Positions 14,806 to 22,056 are shown, counted from the stretch's first letter. The stretch: DNA of 37,032 nucleotides from an uncultured Bacteroidota bacterium (GCA_937900965.1 CALCGJ010000198.1:1-37032); one strand, 5' to 3'. The notes: a model not told the origin generated them from the sequence alone. Numbers and translations: made by a program.

Positions 14806-16083
14806 CTACTCACAATCCCGGCACTTCTCTTTACGAAATGGTTGTGTGATAATCCGGAAAGAGTATTCGTATGTAAAGTAGTTCCAGATCCAGTCAAACA
14901 GGATTGCCAGTCGGTTACGGAATCCGATTAACCGGATCAAATGAACGAACATCCACATGAACCAGGCTACAAAACCATGAAATCTCCCGAATCGTAATTC
15001 GGCAACGGCTTTGTTCCTTCCAACAGTGGACATGATACCAAGATCGGAGTAAATAAATGGTTTAGGGGATTCTCCCCGCTGTAACCGAATCAGGTTACGA
15101 GCCAGGTTATGTCCCTGTTGGATAGCAGGTAGAGCCAGCAACGGATGACCGTCTGGACGTTTCTCAGAGATCATCGCCGCAACATCTCCAAGGGCATAAA
15201 TATCATCGTACCCTGTAACCTGGTTGAATTGGTTTACGATGTAACGGCTCTTACGATAGATCGAATCGGGCTTCACACCTTCAATCACTTCCCCTTTCAC
15301 ACCTGCCGACCAGATAAAAGCTACTGATTTGAGAATAGTTCCGTCAGTAAGAACCACGTTCAGGCCGTCGTAATCTTCCACACGTGTATTCAGCCAAACC
15401 TTGACTCCCATACGTGTCAGGTATTCATCCGCTTTTTCAGAGGAGATCTTTGACATCATGGGCAGTACACGATCTGCCGCCTCGATCAGGTGAATATTCA
15501 TCAATCCGGGATCCAGTTCCGGATAGTCATAAGGAGCTATGTGTTTCTTAAACTCAGCAAGTGATCCGGCAATTTCCACACCGGTCGAGCCGGCACCGAT
15601 GATTACAAAGTTCAGAAGAATCTTCTTTTCGTCAATATGCATTCGGGTGATTGCCTCTTCAAACTCACGCAGCAACGTGTTTCGGATGGTGAGGGCATCG
15701 GTTACTGTTTTCAAAGAGAGGCTATGCTTTTTCAGGTTATCATTCCCATAGAAGTTACTGGTAGATCCAGTCGCTATTACCAGAATATCATATGGGATAT
15801 CTCCGATATTGGTGCTGATTTTTTTTGCCCCGGGTTCAATTTTTGTGACATCAGCCATTCGAAACCGGAAGTTCCTGTACCCCTTAAATATCCTTCTGAA
15901 AGGGGAGGTTATTGAGACATCAGCCAATCCGCATGAAGCTACCTGGTATAATAATGGCTGAAATGTATGATGGTTATTCCGATCAACCAGAATAATGTCA
16001 AACGGTTTGTTCCTGAGCTTTTTTATCAGCTCAATCCCGCCGAACCCCCCACCGATGACAACCAATTTTGGATTATCTTTCAT
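14806..16083 (-). CDS. NAD(P)/FAD-dependent oxidoreductase, type II NADH dehydrogenase-like
   Basis: KLVVIGGGFGGIELIKKLRNKPFDIILVDRNNHHTFQPLLYQVA, FVIIGAGSTGVEIAGSLAEF, YALGDVAAM. Start at the internal Met (16083). Confidence 0.93.
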   Translation of the reverse strand: MKDNPKLVVIGGGFGGIELIKKLRNKPFDIILVDRNNHHTFQPLLYQVASCGLADVSITSPFRRIFKGYRNFRFRMADVTKIEPGAKKISTNIGDIPYDILVIATGSTSNFYGNDNLKKHSLSLKTVTDALTIRNTLLREFEEAITRMHIDEKKILLNFVIIGAGSTGVEIAGSLAEFKKHIAPYDYPELDPGLMNIHLIEAADRVLPMMSKISSEKADEYLTRMGVKVWLNTRVEDYDGLNVVLTDGTILKSVAFIWSAGVKGEVIEGVKPDSIYRKSRYIVNQFNQVTGYDDIYALGDVAAMISEKRPDGHPLLALPAIQQGHNLARNLIRLQRGESPKPFIYSDLGIMSTVGRNKAVAELRFGRFHGFVAWFMWMFVHLIRLIGFRNRLAILFDWIWNYFTYEYSFRIITQPFRKEKCRDCE

Positions 16084-16094
16084 CTGAAACCTTG

Positions 16095-16949
16095 TTAATC
16101 CAACCGGAAGAATCTGGCTGTTTTTACCTGTGATGAAGCAGTCATTGCCCGGATAATATAATAACCTGCAGGTAGATTCCATACTACCAGTGAAATCTCT
16201 TTACTCTGAGGGCTTTCCGAGGAAACCAAACGCCCGGCGGCATCTGTCACAATCAGGGAGGTGATCATTTCCGGAGATGAAACAGTGATCAGTTTCGTAC
16301 AGGGATTTGGATAAACAGACAGGCTGATTGAGATGCCTGGTTCTGGAGTTCCGGTATTAATCGGTTTACCCGAAATGATGATGTCATCGATCTTGTTTAT
16401 CCCCGTTACTTCTAACGGATCCCCGGCTGAGTTGATATTGCTGCTCATGATCCAGCGGATAAACAATGAGGGTTGATTTCTACACTCAATTGGCAGCTCA
16501 AGACTATCTAATGACCCTGTAGTCCAGTCGTTTTGAACCTCGAAAGAACTATTCGGAACTTCTGTCCAGGTTGCGCCGGCTCCTATCCGATATTGTACTT
16601 TCCAATCACGCGGACCGGGATTATTCCCTCCTGATTGCTGTTTGGAGCTAACAGTAAGATGTTCATAATCAGTTGTGGTTATCTCTACTACCCAGCACTT
16701 AAGGTCGGCACCATCATTCCACTCTGTAGCCTGGGCGGCTTTTGTAGTGAATCCGTTTTTTGAGAAATCAATGACGCTTGTACCTCCCTCCGTATGGATG
16801 GATTTGGTTAGGTTGGCCGGGATACCTGCATCTGAAATGCTGTCGCCTGGGCTTCCCGATGGGAAGGTCCATTGAGCAATCAAAACCTGGCTTTGTGAAG
16901 AGGAAATCCAGAGAGAAAAGAGAAAGATGATTGTTAAGATCTGTTTCAT
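16095..16949 (-). CDS. secreted protein with T9SS type A sorting domain
   Basis: Signal peptide MKQILTIIFLFSLWISSSQS; C-terminal ISLSVYPNPCTKLITVSS...VTDAAGRLV...WNLPAGYYIIRAM. N-terminal domain not assigned. Confidence 0.85.
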   Translation of the reverse strand: MKQILTIIFLFSLWISSSQSQVLIAQWTFPSGSPGDSISDAGIPANLTKSIHTEGGTSVIDFSKNGFTTKAAQATEWNDGADLKCWVVEITTTDYEHLTVSSKQQSGGNNPGPRDWKVQYRIGAGATWTEVPNSSFEVQNDWTTGSLDSLELPIECRNQPSLFIRWIMSSNINSAGDPLEVTGINKIDDIIISGKPINTGTPEPGISISLSVYPNPCTKLITVSSPEMITSLIVTDAAGRLVSSESPQSKEISLVVWNLPAGYYIIRAMTASSQVKTARFFRLD

Positions 16950-16969
16950 GGTGGATTGTTTAATTGAAA

Positions 16970-19312
16970 TTATCTTTGATTGGTTTTTTTGGTAAAACGG
17001 TACGAAAGGTTGAGCATAATAAACCGGCCCGGACTTAACTGTCCTTTGCTGTCGGTCCACTGCCTGTTTAAAAGATCCTGAACTGTAATACCGGCTGTTA
17101 ATTTGTTGAAAAAGGTGTAGGATGCCTTCATGTCGATTGTAAAATAGGCGGAATTCTGTGCTGTGTTTTCGTCATTGATCCATTGTTGCCCTACATACCT
17201 GAATGTTATCGAGGTACTTAGCCTGTTTGGCGAATATATCATACCGGCGAAAGCCTGGTTCCCGGGAACCTCCATAAGGAACTTGCCGGTCAGCTCTTTT
17301 CCTGGATTCGCTGTCGTATCAAACTTTATAATCCTGGAATCATTGAAGGAATAATTAGCTATCAACGTTAGGTTTCTGATGATTGGAAGGGTCGCTGTTA
17401 ATTCGGCGCCCAGAATTCTTACCCTGCTGATATTTTCCCTCCGCATAACCGGTTTTAGATTGTCTCCGCCGGTAAATACGCTATCGCCAGTAGCTACAAA
17501 ATATTGAAAATCTCTGCCAAAGGAAAGATATCCTGATGGTTCAAGGGATAATCGTTTAAAGAATGTGACAGTAGCTCCGACTTCTATATTATCAAGTGCT
17601 TCAGGCTTCAACTTTGGGTTAGCCATCTTGAACCCTTTGCTGATATTTCCGTTTTTACACATATCATCCAGGATAGGCGGTCGGAATCCATGGGCGTAAG
17701 AGAGGTAGATGCTCTGCCTTTGGTTGAAATTGTATCGAAGACCTAGCTTGGGACTGATCGCATTCCATGTTTCGTCGGAGAAATCAGATGGATAGCTTGT
17801 CATGAATTCGGAAAGGGTGCTTGGGTACCCGATTGTGAAGGAGCCATCCGTGAACCACGCAATATCCCATCTTAGACCTGCAATGATACTCATCTTCTGT
17901 TTGAACAGGGTCAACTCATATTCAGAAAAAAGAGCAAAAAAGGACATCTTTCCTTTGTTAGTCAGGATGTCGGATGAGGTGTAATAGGTGTCGGAAGCGT
18001 CTACACTGCCCTGTTTCAGGTCCACTCCCACGGTAATAGCCTGGTTGGGACGGAATTGGTTTGTCAGGTTGACCCAGAGACCGTAATCAACCCGTTTGCT
18101 GTTCGTTTCATAAAGTGTGTATTTTCCGCTTCGCTTCGCGCTCCTGGTCTCATTCTGCCGTAGGTAGTTCTCGTTCTGGTAGAAGCCATTTATCAGCAGA
18201 CTGTATTTCCCCCACCCGTTTTGGGTCGACAACCTGACGAAATGAGTCGGATATCGGTTGTAACTCCCAAGAGGTTCGTAGATCTTTGTCCCGTCACCAC
18301 GGATATCGTTGTAATAGTTATACTCAAGTTCCAATCGGTTTCTCGTATTGAACTGATAACCAATTTTCCCTGAAACTGAACCCTCTTTAAGGTACCTGTT
18401 TGTATCAAGATTATCCCTGGTAGCATCAGGTTCTGTGATGTAGCCTTTCCCCTGCCTGTAAAAAAGAGAGAGGTTGTAGTAAAACCCCCGATCCTGACTG
18501 AACAGGCTGCCGCCAAGTTTCAGAAGTCCGCCAAACGTATTGTATGTCCCGTAATAAGCCTTCACTTCCCCTTCCAACAAAGAAGGAGGCTGTTCTGTGA
18601 TGATGTTTATAACACCACTCATCGCATTGCTGCCATAAACTGCGGAAACAGGTCCTTTTAACACCTCGATTCGCTCAATGTTGTCGGGAATCAACCTGTT
18701 CCAGTTGATGCCACCCCCATCAGTCTTATTGAGAGGCACACCGTCAAGCAGGATCAGGGCCCTGTAAGAGCCGTTTAATCCACGCATGGTCACACTCGAA
18801 TTCTTAGAGAAAATGCCAAAGTCACGGTCAAATTTGATTCCGGGTATTAGCTGCAGGACTTCATCTGTATTATTGACCGGCATCTCCATCACCTTTTTTG
18901 ATGGAATACTGGCGATCCGGGCAGGAATCTCGTCAGGCTTTTGAGGTGTTCGTGTTGCTGTAACAAACAGCTCCTCCATCTGGTGTACGTCAGGTGTCAA
19001 ACAGAGTGAAATCCCGATCGTGTCATCCACTGGATCACGTGTAAGTGTTTGCTGGAGGTTCTGATATCCAATATAGGAGAGCCTCAGCCTTACCTTGCGA
19101 TCAGGTTCAACAGTAAGGTTGAAACTTCCACCCGGTCCGGAAACCGCACCTTGAAGAGACCCGGAAACAAGGATGTTGGCTCCCTGAAGTGGTTTACCTG
19201 TGCTGCAGTCACGAATTGTACCGGTAATCACCTGTTGGGAAAAGAGCGTGATTGATGAAAAAGCTATTCCCAGGAATAGGAGATATACAGTATGAATGAT
19301 AGCTCTTTTCAT
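16970..19312 (-). CDS. TonB-dependent receptor with N-terminal CarboxypepD_reg-like domain
   Basis: ITGTIRDCSTGKPLQGANILVSGSLQGAVS, plug VTMRGLNGSYRALILLDGVPLN...IERIEVLKGPVSAVYGSNAMSGVINIIT, barrel to SYRF terminus. Confidence 0.96.
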   Translation of the reverse strand: MKRAIIHTVYLLFLGIAFSSITLFSQQVITGTIRDCSTGKPLQGANILVSGSLQGAVSGPGGSFNLTVEPDRKVRLRLSYIGYQNLQQTLTRDPVDDTIGISLCLTPDVHQMEELFVTATRTPQKPDEIPARIASIPSKKVMEMPVNNTDEVLQLIPGIKFDRDFGIFSKNSSVTMRGLNGSYRALILLDGVPLNKTDGGGINWNRLIPDNIERIEVLKGPVSAVYGSNAMSGVINIITEQPPSLLEGEVKAYYGTYNTFGGLLKLGGSLFSQDRGFYYNLSLFYRQGKGYITEPDATRDNLDTNRYLKEGSVSGKIGYQFNTRNRLELEYNYYNDIRGDGTKIYEPLGSYNRYPTHFVRLSTQNGWGKYSLLINGFYQNENYLRQNETRSAKRSGKYTLYETNSKRVDYGLWVNLTNQFRPNQAITVGVDLKQGSVDASDTYYTSSDILTNKGKMSFFALFSEYELTLFKQKMSIIAGLRWDIAWFTDGSFTIGYPSTLSEFMTSYPSDFSDETWNAISPKLGLRYNFNQRQSIYLSYAHGFRPPILDDMCKNGNISKGFKMANPKLKPEALDNIEVGATVTFFKRLSLEPSGYLSFGRDFQYFVATGDSVFTGGDNLKPVMRRENISRVRILGAELTATLPIIRNLTLIANYSFNDSRIIKFDTTANPGKELTGKFLMEVPGNQAFAGMIYSPNRLSTSITFRYVGQQWINDENTAQNSAYFTIDMKASYTFFNKLTAGITVQDLLNRQWTDSKGQLSPGRFIMLNLSYRFTKKTNQR

Positions 19313-19318
19313 CTCTCT

Positions 19319-20233
19319 TTATTGCTGAATCTTTATATCCATCAGAATTTGGCCTCCCGGACCGGAAATTACCTCTTTGACCAGGATCAGCCCCAGGTTT
19401 CCTTTCGGATCCCTGAATGAGATTACCATGCCGGGAAGGATGAATTTTGCTTTTCGCTTCAGGTTTACCGGTTCGTAAGCTGCCAGGATAAGGCTGTCAT
19501 TTCCGGAAAGGTCAAAATCTGTTGGAGCGAACGCTGTTGTATCGTACCTTGTTTCATTCTTAATGGTCCAGTTTGCCAATCCTGTTGGTCCGCCGAAGAG
19601 AGCCGGTGCATCAGCTTCTGAAGGGGAGGAGAGCGTGGCTTCATACTCATCGAAATAGTAGATCAGATCAATGGAATCCTGCTTTTGATAGGCCTCTTCC
19701 TGAAAATATCTATGGCCAGCTCCGAGGGAGAAAAAACTTCCGGCATCCTCGTTGGTCTGGGCTCCTAAAAGGATGTTGGCATAGGAAAGAATTGGCCCGT
19801 ATTGGGAAGATGCTGATTTTCTGAGGGTTATTGACCTGTTGCGAAAGCTGTGGTTACGATCCATCACGAGGAAATTCCAGGTTTCTATCTCGTTGGCTGT
19901 TTTTGTGATTTCGATCTCATATCTCAAAACAGGTTGATTCATCCCGCTGTCGAGAACTGTCTGATCCTCTCCGTTGTTCCAACCGATATGGAGGTAGGTG
20001 ATATTAACACCCTCTCCCTGTGCTTCGATGCCTACCATGATTCGTTCTCCTATTGCCAGGGTTGTATCGTGACTGACAAATCCGGAATCGGTCCGAAATG
20101 TCAGGTTGGGCGGAACATAGGAGACCTCTTTTTGGCATGAAGCAAGGGAAAACAGGAATAATGAAACCCAGACCGATATGTTGAGAAAAACATATCGGGT
20201 ATGTACTTCTGGAGTCATTGGGAGATAGTTCAT
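19319..20233 (-). CDS. predicted outer-membrane lipoprotein of unknown function
   Basis: Lipobox-like SLFLFSLASC-QKE; close spacing between the membrane-protein gene and the TonB receptor gene. Confidence 0.7.
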   Translation of the reverse strand: MNYLPMTPEVHTRYVFLNISVWVSLFLFSLASCQKEVSYVPPNLTFRTDSGFVSHDTTLAIGERIMVGIEAQGEGVNITYLHIGWNNGEDQTVLDSGMNQPVLRYEIEITKTANEIETWNFLVMDRNHSFRNRSITLRKSASSQYGPILSYANILLGAQTNEDAGSFFSLGAGHRYFQEEAYQKQDSIDLIYYFDEYEATLSSPSEADAPALFGGPTGLANWTIKNETRYDTTAFAPTDFDLSGNDSLILAAYEPVNLKRKAKFILPGMVISFRDPKGNLGLILVKEVISGPGGQILMDIKIQQ

Positions 20234-20238
20234 CTGGA

Positions 20239-20823
20239 TTACTCTTTTTTTAGAAAATGTGCTGAAAGCTTAAGGATACTCGATCCAAGTAATCCTCCTG
20301 CAAGTCCGAAGAAGAGGTGGGTGGCAACCGGCCATGCTATGCCGTAACGGAAGGAGGTAAATAGCATCCCTGTCATGGATGCTATGGCTAGTTTGATCAG
20401 TGGAATAAACATCCATCCGATAGCACATGAAAGAGCAGTTGCCATTACAAACGGCATCACCTTCCTGAAATTCAGATAAAGGATATCCAGGATAAAGCCG
20501 ATCAGAATATAAACAACCGGGGTAAGTGGTTCACGGAATCCCAGCCAGGAGGTCATCAGGATGAGGGCAGATCCGCCGCAGGCTATGGATCCTGCAAAAG
20601 GGAATTGAGAGACACCACGCCCAAGGATGATCAGAGTAAGGAAGATGACTCCCTGTCTGCCCGGCAATTGAAGGGGAATCCGCAGTTTGGCATGAATAAC
20701 CATAGCAAGTATCCCCAAAAATAACAGGAACATCACTTCGGCAACGGTTCCGGCGATCTTACTCGGAAATAAGCTTGATAAACTCCTTGGAAGCGGACTG
20801 GTAGTCGCAATTTTCATTCCCAT
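20239..20823 (-). CDS. small polytopic integral membrane protein, possibly ECF S-component-like (start uncertain)
   Basis: Several hydrophobic segments (VMFLLFLGILAMVI, VVYILIGFILDILYL, LFFGLAGGLLGSSIL). 65-nt overlap with the upstream gene; a Met at 20733 is an alternative start. Confidence 0.6.
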   Translation of the reverse strand: MGMKIATTSPLPRSLSSLFPSKIAGTVAEVMFLLFLGILAMVIHAKLRIPLQLPGRQGVIFLTLIILGRGVSQFPFAGSIACGGSALILMTSWLGFREPLTPVVYILIGFILDILYLNFRKVMPFVMATALSCAIGWMFIPLIKLAIASMTGMLFTSFRYGIAWPVATHLFFGLAGGLLGSSILKLSAHFLKKE

Positions 20824-21502
20824 TCAATTTCTCTGCAAATAAAACGATTTTTTTGTTCCTGACAATGGGTCGACACCATCCTGTGATCCGAATGGTAGCA
20901 GTTTCGGGGATCGGAATGCCCTGAAGATCAACTATCAGGTCGACGGAAACCATCTCCATATATTTTTTTACCGGGAATACTCCCTGTACCTCTCTGAGTC
21001 CTTCAATCCACAATAACCTGCCATCATTGCCTTCAAACCGGAGTCCAACAGCAGCAAGAGCCCCAATTACGCCGATTTTTTTACCAGTCAGTCCTGTGAG
21101 AAAGATCTGGTGTTTTCTGGCCAGTTTTTCGGCAGCAGGTTTTGTAAGAATAACCTGTTTGGCCTGGTTCCCGAAATGAATGATCTCATTATGAATCTCC
21201 TCTCCGAATGCAATGCACAGTCCTACATCTGAACCGGTAGCGGCATGGCCGAGCAGAAAATCGGAGCAGTAGTTCCGGATCCAATAATCATTTCCGGATA
21301 CTTTCCCCACGATGCAGGCGGCTGAATTGTGCGATGTATATGGAATGCCAGGATCAACAAGTAACTGGTGACGTGTGATGCAAAATACATCAACCAGTCC
21401 GGATTGTTGCAAGGTTTCCGCTAATGCTCTGGTAATATGGCCCGTACCCCGGCTCTCAGGATTGTCCGTATCATCAATGCCAATGTAGACCTGCGAATTC
21501 AT
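20759..21502 (-). CDS. TiaS-like (COG1571-type) kinase-domain protein
   Basis: VYIGIDDTDNPESRGTGHITRAL, PGIPYTSHNSAACIV, GKKIGVIGALAAVGLR resemble the N-terminal domains of archaeal tRNA(Ile2)-agmatinylcytidine synthetase. No C-terminal OB/Zn-ribbon region visible. Confidence 0.7.
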   Translation of the reverse strand: MNSQVYIGIDDTDNPESRGTGHITRALAETLQQSGLVDVFCITRHQLLVDPGIPYTSHNSAACIVGKVSGNDYWIRNYCSDFLLGHAATGSDVGLCIAFGEEIHNEIIHFGNQAKQVILTKPAAEKLARKHQIFLTGLTGKKIGVIGALAAVGLRFEGNDGRLLWIEGLREVQGVFPVKKYMEMVSVDLIVDLQGIPIPETATIRITGWCRPIVRNKKIVLFAEKLNGNENCDYQSASKEFIKLISE

Positions 21503-21594
21503 TGTGAAATAATTAACGCGAATGTACGAACTTTCCCGACATGTCAGGAGAAACATATCGAAAAAACAATTCTATGCCAGGGGATGGGGAATGT

Positions 21595-22056
21595 TTAGTG
21601 TCTGTGAATTCTTCCATCGAAGCGGTCGACCTTAACGATCCAGCAATTGACTTCACGCATGGAAGGAGGGTTGTAGGTGAATTTCCCATCGGTATACTGT
21701 TTCATAACAATATCAAGGGCTTGTCGCTTCTGCTCCGTGTCTTCAATAAATTCAACCGTTCCATAACACAAAACGCTGCTGTATTTCATGCTATATGAAC
21801 AGCCTACCTCTTTATGCTGGAAAAGAAGTTCATGATCGGTAGTGAAGTTTACACAGACAGAGGGATTTATTTTCAGACAATCAATTTTTTTCCCCTCCTG
21901 GGCTGAGTGCAGATAAATTACATCATCTGCAAAGCCAAAGTTCATGGGCAACAGGTATGGTTTCCCTTCAGGGTCAACCATAGCAACATGACAGACCTGG
22001 CATCTTGAAATGATTGTTATAATATCGTTGTGGTTGTCAAGGTTTTTCGTTCTCAT
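21595..22056 (-). CDS. pyridoxamine 5'-phosphate oxidase family (NimA-like) flavoprotein
   Basis: CQVCHVAMVDPEGKPYLLPMNFGFADDVIYLHSAQEGKKIDCLKINPSVCVNF, typical Nim/PNPOx-like split barrel. Confidence 0.85.
   Translation of the reverse strand: MRTKNLDNHNDIITIISRCQVCHVAMVDPEGKPYLLPMNFGFADDVIYLHSAQEGKKIDCLKINPSVCVNFTTDHELLFQHKEVGCSYSMKYSSVLCYGTVEFIEDTEQKRQALDIVMKQYTDGKFTYNPPSMREVNCWIVKVDRFDGRIHRH

Follow-up and report, generated by a model that had tools for sequence, protein, structure and literature searches.

A candidate ModE-type-regulated, TonB-dependent operon for molybdenum and/or tungsten acquisition in Bacteroidales

The known molybdenum and tungsten (Mo/W) systems comprise the ModABC, WtpABC, TupABC and MolBCA importers and ModE control; active outer-membrane uptake of either metal is poorly described. 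In Pelobacter carbinolicus, TonB channels were reported near the aldehyde ferredoxin oxidoreductase (AOR) gene, molybdopterin-type riboswitches and molybdopterin-binding proteins, and metal transport was proposed (PMC3543383); this remark is the closest earlier hint of the system described here. Our literature search found no paper joining a TonB receptor, a lipoprotein, an S component and a kinase for Mo/W uptake. We analyzed a 37,032-nt stretch of DNA from an uncultured Bacteroidota bacterium (CALCGJ010000198.1:1-37032, hereafter the window), in which positions 14806-21502 hold a minus-strand gene cluster for a TiaS-like protein, a membrane protein, a lipoprotein, a TonB-dependent receptor, a protein secreted by the type IX secretion system (T9SS) and a type 2 NADH dehydrogenase (NDH-2). 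The cluster is probably a ModE-type-regulated, TonB-dependent acquisition operon for molybdenum and/or tungsten; this ligand class is suggested by the genomic context, an operator shared with AOR, and gene co-occurrence. In holding that the sequence does not reveal the ligand, the first-pass annotation was too pessimistic, since the same three lines point to Mo/W, and the nucleoside, corrinoid, haem and thiamine-precursor ligands it proposed for growth tests found no support. Within our assignment, the imported species may be metal, metallophore or pterin, the element may be molybdenum or tungsten, and the chemistry of the TiaS-like protein is putative.

All six minus-strand open reading frames (ORFs) and their junctions were confirmed. 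They are listed here with two predicted operators and the ModE-like regulator gene of the same genome (loci are given by their L numbers).

20759..21502, minus strand: TiaS-like protein, 247 aa; Thr18-Cyt34-kinase-type (TCKD) domain of TiaS only
20239..20823, minus strand: membrane protein, 194 aa, six helices, similar to S components of energy-coupling factor (ECF) transporters
19319..20233, minus strand: lipoprotein, 304 aa, lipobox Cys33; 5 nt gap after the membrane protein
16970..19312, minus strand: TonB-dependent receptor, 780 aa; 6 nt gap after the lipoprotein
16095..16949, minus strand: T9SS-secreted accessory protein, 285 aa; 20 nt gap after the receptor gene
14806..16083, minus strand: NDH-2-like NADH dehydrogenase, a neighbour outside the conserved system; 11 nt gap
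21537..21560, minus strand: ModE-type palindrome CGATATG-N10-CATGTCG, 35-58 nt upstream of the TiaS-like ATG
20174..20197, minus strand: perfect ModE-type palindrome CGATATG-N10-CATATCG, at the 5' end of the lipoprotein gene
L097 7262-7693: ModE-like regulator of the window's genome; TIGR00637 E 6e-19, 68 bits, below the cut-off of 98.5

The most plausible start of the TiaS-like ORF (stop side 20759) is the ATG at 21502, preferred over the upstream ATG at 21556 because the latter would lie across the operator. The membrane-protein ORF overlaps this ORF by at most 65 nt, and the T9SS gene starts at its first in-frame ATG, 16949. The tight junctions fit the single transcript suggested earlier; a single unit is not certain, since ModE-type operators both upstream of the TiaS-like gene and at the start of the lipoprotein gene suggest two regulated units.

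The TiaS-like protein was searched against 295 genomes of the window's order (Bacteroidales), the surroundings of the matches were fetched, and their ORFs were scanned with the window's proteins. The gene was found in 40 genomes (carriers), mostly at 33-51% identity. The recurrent order is TiaS-like, membrane protein, lipoprotein and TonB receptor, often followed by the T9SS protein, and some loci hold a second lipoprotein-receptor pair after this core. In 34 of 45 loci the TiaS-like gene is followed directly by the membrane protein, the lipoprotein is second in 31 and the receptor third in 25, and several of the loci without the full order end at contig borders; the order is conserved in about 30 of the 37 Bacteroidales loci. 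Since diverged relatives (25-50% identical) keep the same order in dozens of genomes, the arrangement exceeds chance. The T9SS protein is a cluster member in about a third of loci (12 loci besides the window), while NDH-2 is found with the core nowhere but in the window and its close relative L032. The six-gene unit proposed from the sequence was thus one gene too long: the co-occurrence check suggested with it, now run across Bacteroidales, retained the core four or five genes and removed NDH-2.

Inverted repeats upstream of the operons led to a 24-bp palindrome, CGWTATG-N10-CATAWCG. At up to one mismatch, 783 kb of locus sequence holds 36 sites, compared with 0.40 +/- 0.83 for 200 permuted half-sites, and the sites are located at the starts of TiaS-like, ModE-like, lipoprotein, T9SS, AOR and aldehyde dehydrogenase (ALDH) genes. 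At up to two mismatches, 18 of the 37 lipoprotein starts have a site (0.07 expected from shuffles), and no receptor or membrane-protein start has one. The lipoprotein-start sites occupy two different reading frames, which argues that DNA rather than protein is conserved there. The T9SS gene has its own ModE-type box in L040 and L041. The window's 3.79 Mb genome holds exactly three places with at most one mismatch, two in the window operon and the third on contig C292, where it precedes the AOR gene by 80-103 nt; the pattern read backwards has one place. Riboswitches for the molybdenum cofactor, cobalamin and thiamine pyrophosphate (TPP) gave no Rfam match in the window and 19 other loci.

The E. 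coli ModE consensus is quoted as ATCGNTATATA-N6-TATATANCGAT (PMC545781), and our palindrome has the same 24-bp frame and the same outer six bases per half as this quoted sequence. The predicted sites fit the ModE frame (CGNTAT...ATANCG, 24 bp). The ModE-like regulator family profile matches the ModE structures 1b9m/1o7l (E 3e-17), and by this match the window's genome holds a ModE-type regulator. This copy scores below the curated TIGR00637 cut-off; at 143 aa it has the DNA-binding domain only and is too short for molybdate-binding domains. The cluster appears to belong, together with AOR, to a predicted ModE-type regulon. A PpnP-like gene (~93 aa) often adjoins the ModE-like or TiaS-like gene (L051, L054, L058, L067, L068, L074).

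At least one Mo/W gene was found within the fetched stretch in 25 of the 37 Bacteroidales loci: a ModE-like regulator, WtpA, WtpB, WtpC, MoeA, MoaA, MoaC, MOSC-Mog or AOR, the last five being named from sequence reading and family searches. The single-domain ModE-like regulator is present in 23 loci, usually directly upstream. WtpA of L056 and L088 scores above the tungstate cut-off of NCBIfam; TupA of L094, though a strong match, stays below its own. In eight carriers the contig with the TiaS-like gene also holds a ModA/WtpA-type binder, at a distance of no more than about 16 kb. AOR occurs in 39/40 carriers vs 77/255 other genomes (p = 4e-17), and MoaA in 36/40 vs 90/255 (p = 3e-11), the carriers without MoaA being drafts or having a divergent copy unaccompanied by the other genes. 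When only genomes with AOR are compared, ModA/WtpA-type proteins are less common in carriers (26/39) than in non-carriers (68/77; p = 0.011), as expected if the TonB cluster can replace those binders. The window's genome encodes AOR, a NarG-like protein and two further molybdopterin-type proteins; ModE-like, MoeA, MoaA, MoaC, MOSC-Mog and AOR genes lie together on contig C292. No ModA/WtpA-type protein was found and no TupA was detected in this draft genome, whose PBP_like_2 proteins, read by eye, comprise two shorter PstS-like ones and a third that is a 578-aa multidomain protein. MoaA of these Bacteroidales (contig C292 of G000 and other matches) is short, about 266-280 aa, and in most genomes covers only part of Mob_synth_C.

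The membrane protein had been proposed to be the inner-membrane permease, and its predicted fold agrees. The AlphaFold2 model (pLDDT 90.4) has six helices, and the top three PDB matches by Foldseek are the S components 4rfs_S, 5edl and 3p5n (prob 0.97-0.99, TM 0.46-0.54, E about 0.2), indicating a six-helix S fold for the model. PG..G and D113 are invariant. A PDB sequence search with the family profile gave nothing significant. The L035 relative matches PF09819 (E 1.6e-5), is YkoE-like and lies beside EcfA/EcfT-type genes; this and the other Chloroflexota relative, in L093, are accompanied by ECF-type ATPase and T genes, those of L093 being read by eye. No CbiQ/EcfT match, and hence no EcfT/EcfA partner, was found in the window's genome, and just 3 of the 40 carriers have EcfT, one of them weakly. 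Since its own genome is without EcfT, the membrane protein would act like a solitary BioY, for which function without an ECF module is known (Finkenwirth et al. 2013, cited in PMC4820897). The literature searched revealed no S component for Mo/W.

As a single sequence, the TiaS-like protein scores 18.8 bits with Pfam TiaS_TCKD, below the cut-off of 27, and it matches NCBIfam methan_mark_11 (E 8e-12) and TiaS (E 6e-8) far under both cut-offs. The family profile matches the TiaS structures 3amt/4rvz (E 2e-12) and the stand-alone 3u02 (E 1e-11). DDTD and the counterpart of TiaS Thr18, likewise a Thr, are invariant in 38 sequences, so that the TCKD kinase domain with its catalytic Thr18 is recognized at the profile level; the whole-protein TiaS model is not matched (31.7 bits vs a cut-off of 600). 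The conserved kinase signature supports the earlier suggestion of an intracellular ATP-dependent enzyme. PDB 3u02, named TFIIS-like, is a stand-alone TiaS-type kinase domain and may belong to the same functional group. Outside Bacteroidota, in Chloroflexota and Clostridiales, the TiaS-like gene lies beside importers: WtpABC (L088), an ECF transporter (L035, L093) and FecBCD-type transporters (L091, L092, L036/L095); in L094 a TupA-like gene is near, several genes apart. Since the gene follows chemically different importers of one element, the enzyme most likely works either on what is imported or in the assembly of the cofactor, and the chemistry of this step is the least certain part of our proposal. 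We suggest, tentatively and with less than even confidence, that the stand-alone TiaS-type kinase is a widespread unrecognised ATP-dependent step of Mo/W metabolism, perhaps including methanogenesis marker protein 11, joined in Bacteroidota to a TonB receptor, a lipoprotein and a solitary S component importing chelated or pterin-bound metal. Gene order, S-component-like fold and kinase signature together uphold the core of the earlier idea, an uptake-and-modification system for a scarce ligand, which is partly supported overall.

Several points weigh against the Mo/W assignment. All of the functional evidence comes from genomic context. The genomes are related and some lineages are without all these genes together, so that the co-occurrence p-values treat the genomes as more independent than they are. 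A ModA/WtpA-type binder is also present in 26 of the 39 carriers with AOR, which indicates that the cluster is often not the sole route. The window's genome is a 96%-complete draft, in which absences are no proof. The S-component E-values are weak though the probabilities are high, and without EcfT, both in this genome and in nearly all carriers, the energy for the inner-membrane step is unexplained. The L035 ECF variant lies near an NMT1/THI5-like transporter, a possible hint of a vitamin-like ligand.

S components usually carry vitamins, and the TiaS family acts on a pyrimidine carbonyl. These two properties would suit another ligand, a pterin form (molybdopterin, its metal complex or dinucleotide) scavenged from outside and processed at the pterin or base by the TiaS-like kinase, and the S-component-like fold, the YkoE-like relative in L035 and the Oxidored_molyb domain (E 7e-7) of the L035 lipoprotein beside the TiaS-like gene are in line with it. 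We nevertheless consider it unlikely: with MoaA in 36 of the 40 carriers, cofactor scavenging is not needed, the TiaS-like protein also accompanies the oxyanion binders WtpA and TupA, and the Bacteroidales OxMol1 lipoproteins do not match Oxidored_molyb. That name had been given to the OxMol1 lipoprotein by eye and was dropped as unsupported in Pfam, NCBIfam or PDB. A lipoprotein family (alignment A4, ~350 aa) recurs in the clusters of L040, L041, L049, L050, L054, L069 and L070; it has no database match and its Oxidored_molyb likeness is by eye only.

The window lipoprotein (AlphaFold2 pLDDT 93.3) combines an Ig-like domain at the N-terminus with a C-terminal domain that has no recognised match, and its lipobox Cys33 is invariant in 33 aligned sequences. 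No Pfam family above threshold and no HmuY match was found, and a PDB sequence search with its profile gave nothing significant. Identification by fold was abandoned, the PDB fold matches being partial and mostly Ig-like. The receptor has both plug and barrel (Pfam Plug 1e-24, TonB_dep_Rec 1e-35) and CarbopepD_reg_2 (8e-15). Its best named model is the haem receptor TIGR01785 at 211 bits, and FecBCD-type transporters occur in L036 and the Chloroflexota variants, which would be compatible with haem or iron-siderophore uptake and incidental Mo/W neighbours. Haem receptor identity was rejected at a cut-off of 317 bits (exactly, 210.7 vs 316.85). Haem or siderophore uptake is disfavoured and very improbable given also the lack of a HmuY match, the Mo/W context, the ModE-type operator and the AOR co-occurrence. 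MolBC-A belongs to the same transporter class as the FecBCD-type transporters. It is a known molybdate importer (PMC4031551).

The separate operator at the lipoprotein start, and TiaS-like genes without lipoprotein or receptor (L059, L069, L071, Chloroflexota), would also agree with a Mo/W-regulated unit of TiaS-like and membrane protein whose ligand is unrelated to a merely co-regulated lipoprotein-receptor pair; four genes adjacent in one order across many families and the same operator on both units make this highly improbable. Uptake and phosphorylation of thiamine pyrimidine or a nucleoside, suggested by the YkoE-like L035 membrane protein, the adjoining NMT1/THI5-like binder and the kinase-type TiaS domain, is the least probable explanation: neither the window nor 19 other loci gave a TPP riboswitch match, thiamine genes do not recur in Bacteroidales neighbourhoods, and the operator is common with AOR.

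Several neighbouring features were also recorded. The T9SS protein matches Por_Secre_tail (3e-8), and NDH-2 matches Pyr_redox_2 (3e-44) and NDH2_C (2e-8). At 21595-22056 the window encodes a pyridoxamine-oxidase-family protein, weakly similar to NimABCDEF nitroimidazole reductases and far below those cut-offs; it adjoins the cluster in the closest relatives only. NDH-2, this gene and RadA were rejected as parts of the system, being confined to the closest relatives. Additional lipoprotein copies or second lipoprotein-receptor pairs lie inside the cluster in L065 (5135-8619), L040, L041, L052 and L054, which suggests more than one ligand form. On a contig labelled Nitrobacter winogradskyi (L033 6656-7885), a broken second TiaS-like copy in two pieces, followed by a transposase-like fragment, adjoins an intact set of TiaS-like, membrane-protein and TonB-receptor genes; the family was found in only 1 of 199 genomes of the proteobacterial order to which the genome so labelled belongs.

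For the proposed Mo/W acquisition operon, the following mechanism can be envisaged. Metal scarcity would lift the repression exerted by the ModE-like protein. With the aid of the T9SS-secreted protein, the lipoprotein would capture the metal at the cell surface in oxyanion or chelated form, the TonB receptor would move this species into the periplasm, and the S-component-like protein would carry it over the inner membrane with no ECF ATPase of its own. In the cytosol, the TiaS-like kinase would spend ATP on the incoming species or on a linked cofactor-assembly step, and the metal would then serve AOR, the NarG-like protein and the genome's other molybdopterin oxidoreductases. With this proposal, orphan proteins of many Bacteroidales acquire a likely ligand class, and a ModE-type regulon is predicted down to its operator sequence. 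The stand-alone TiaS-like family, which counts a methanogenesis marker protein of unknown function among its relatives, gains a pathway that can be tested.

TiaS, methanogenesis marker protein 11 and 3u02 share with the TiaS-like protein the GIDDTD motif, the Thr18-equivalent Thr and a profile match over ~150 residues. The TiaS model spans ~420 aa with additional domains, whereas the TiaS-like protein has 247 aa and none of the other TiaS domains; TiaS is the tRNA-Ile2 agmatidine synthetase, and the genomic setting here points to Mo/W uptake, not tRNA modification. The membrane protein resembles ECF S components (YkoE, PanT, RibU) and solitary BioY in its predicted six-helix fold; ECF partners adjoin its relatives in L035 and L093, in contrast to the window's genome without EcfT. 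In the HmuY/HmuR haem uptake of Bacteroidales, a lipoprotein gene likewise directly precedes the TonB receptor gene, but the cluster lipoprotein does not match HmuY and the receptor falls below the haem-family cut-off. In Pelobacter carbinolicus too, TonB channel genes adjoin Mo/W genes, whereas the passages on that organism mention no TiaS-like, S-component or lipoprotein gene and describe regulation by riboswitch, for which the window cluster has no Rfam match (PMC3543383). Regulator type, operator frame and genomic company are those of the ModABC, WtpABC, TupABC and MolBCA importers under ModE control; unlike these, the cluster core is without periplasmic binder or ATPase, and it adds an outer-membrane TonB receptor and a surface lipoprotein.

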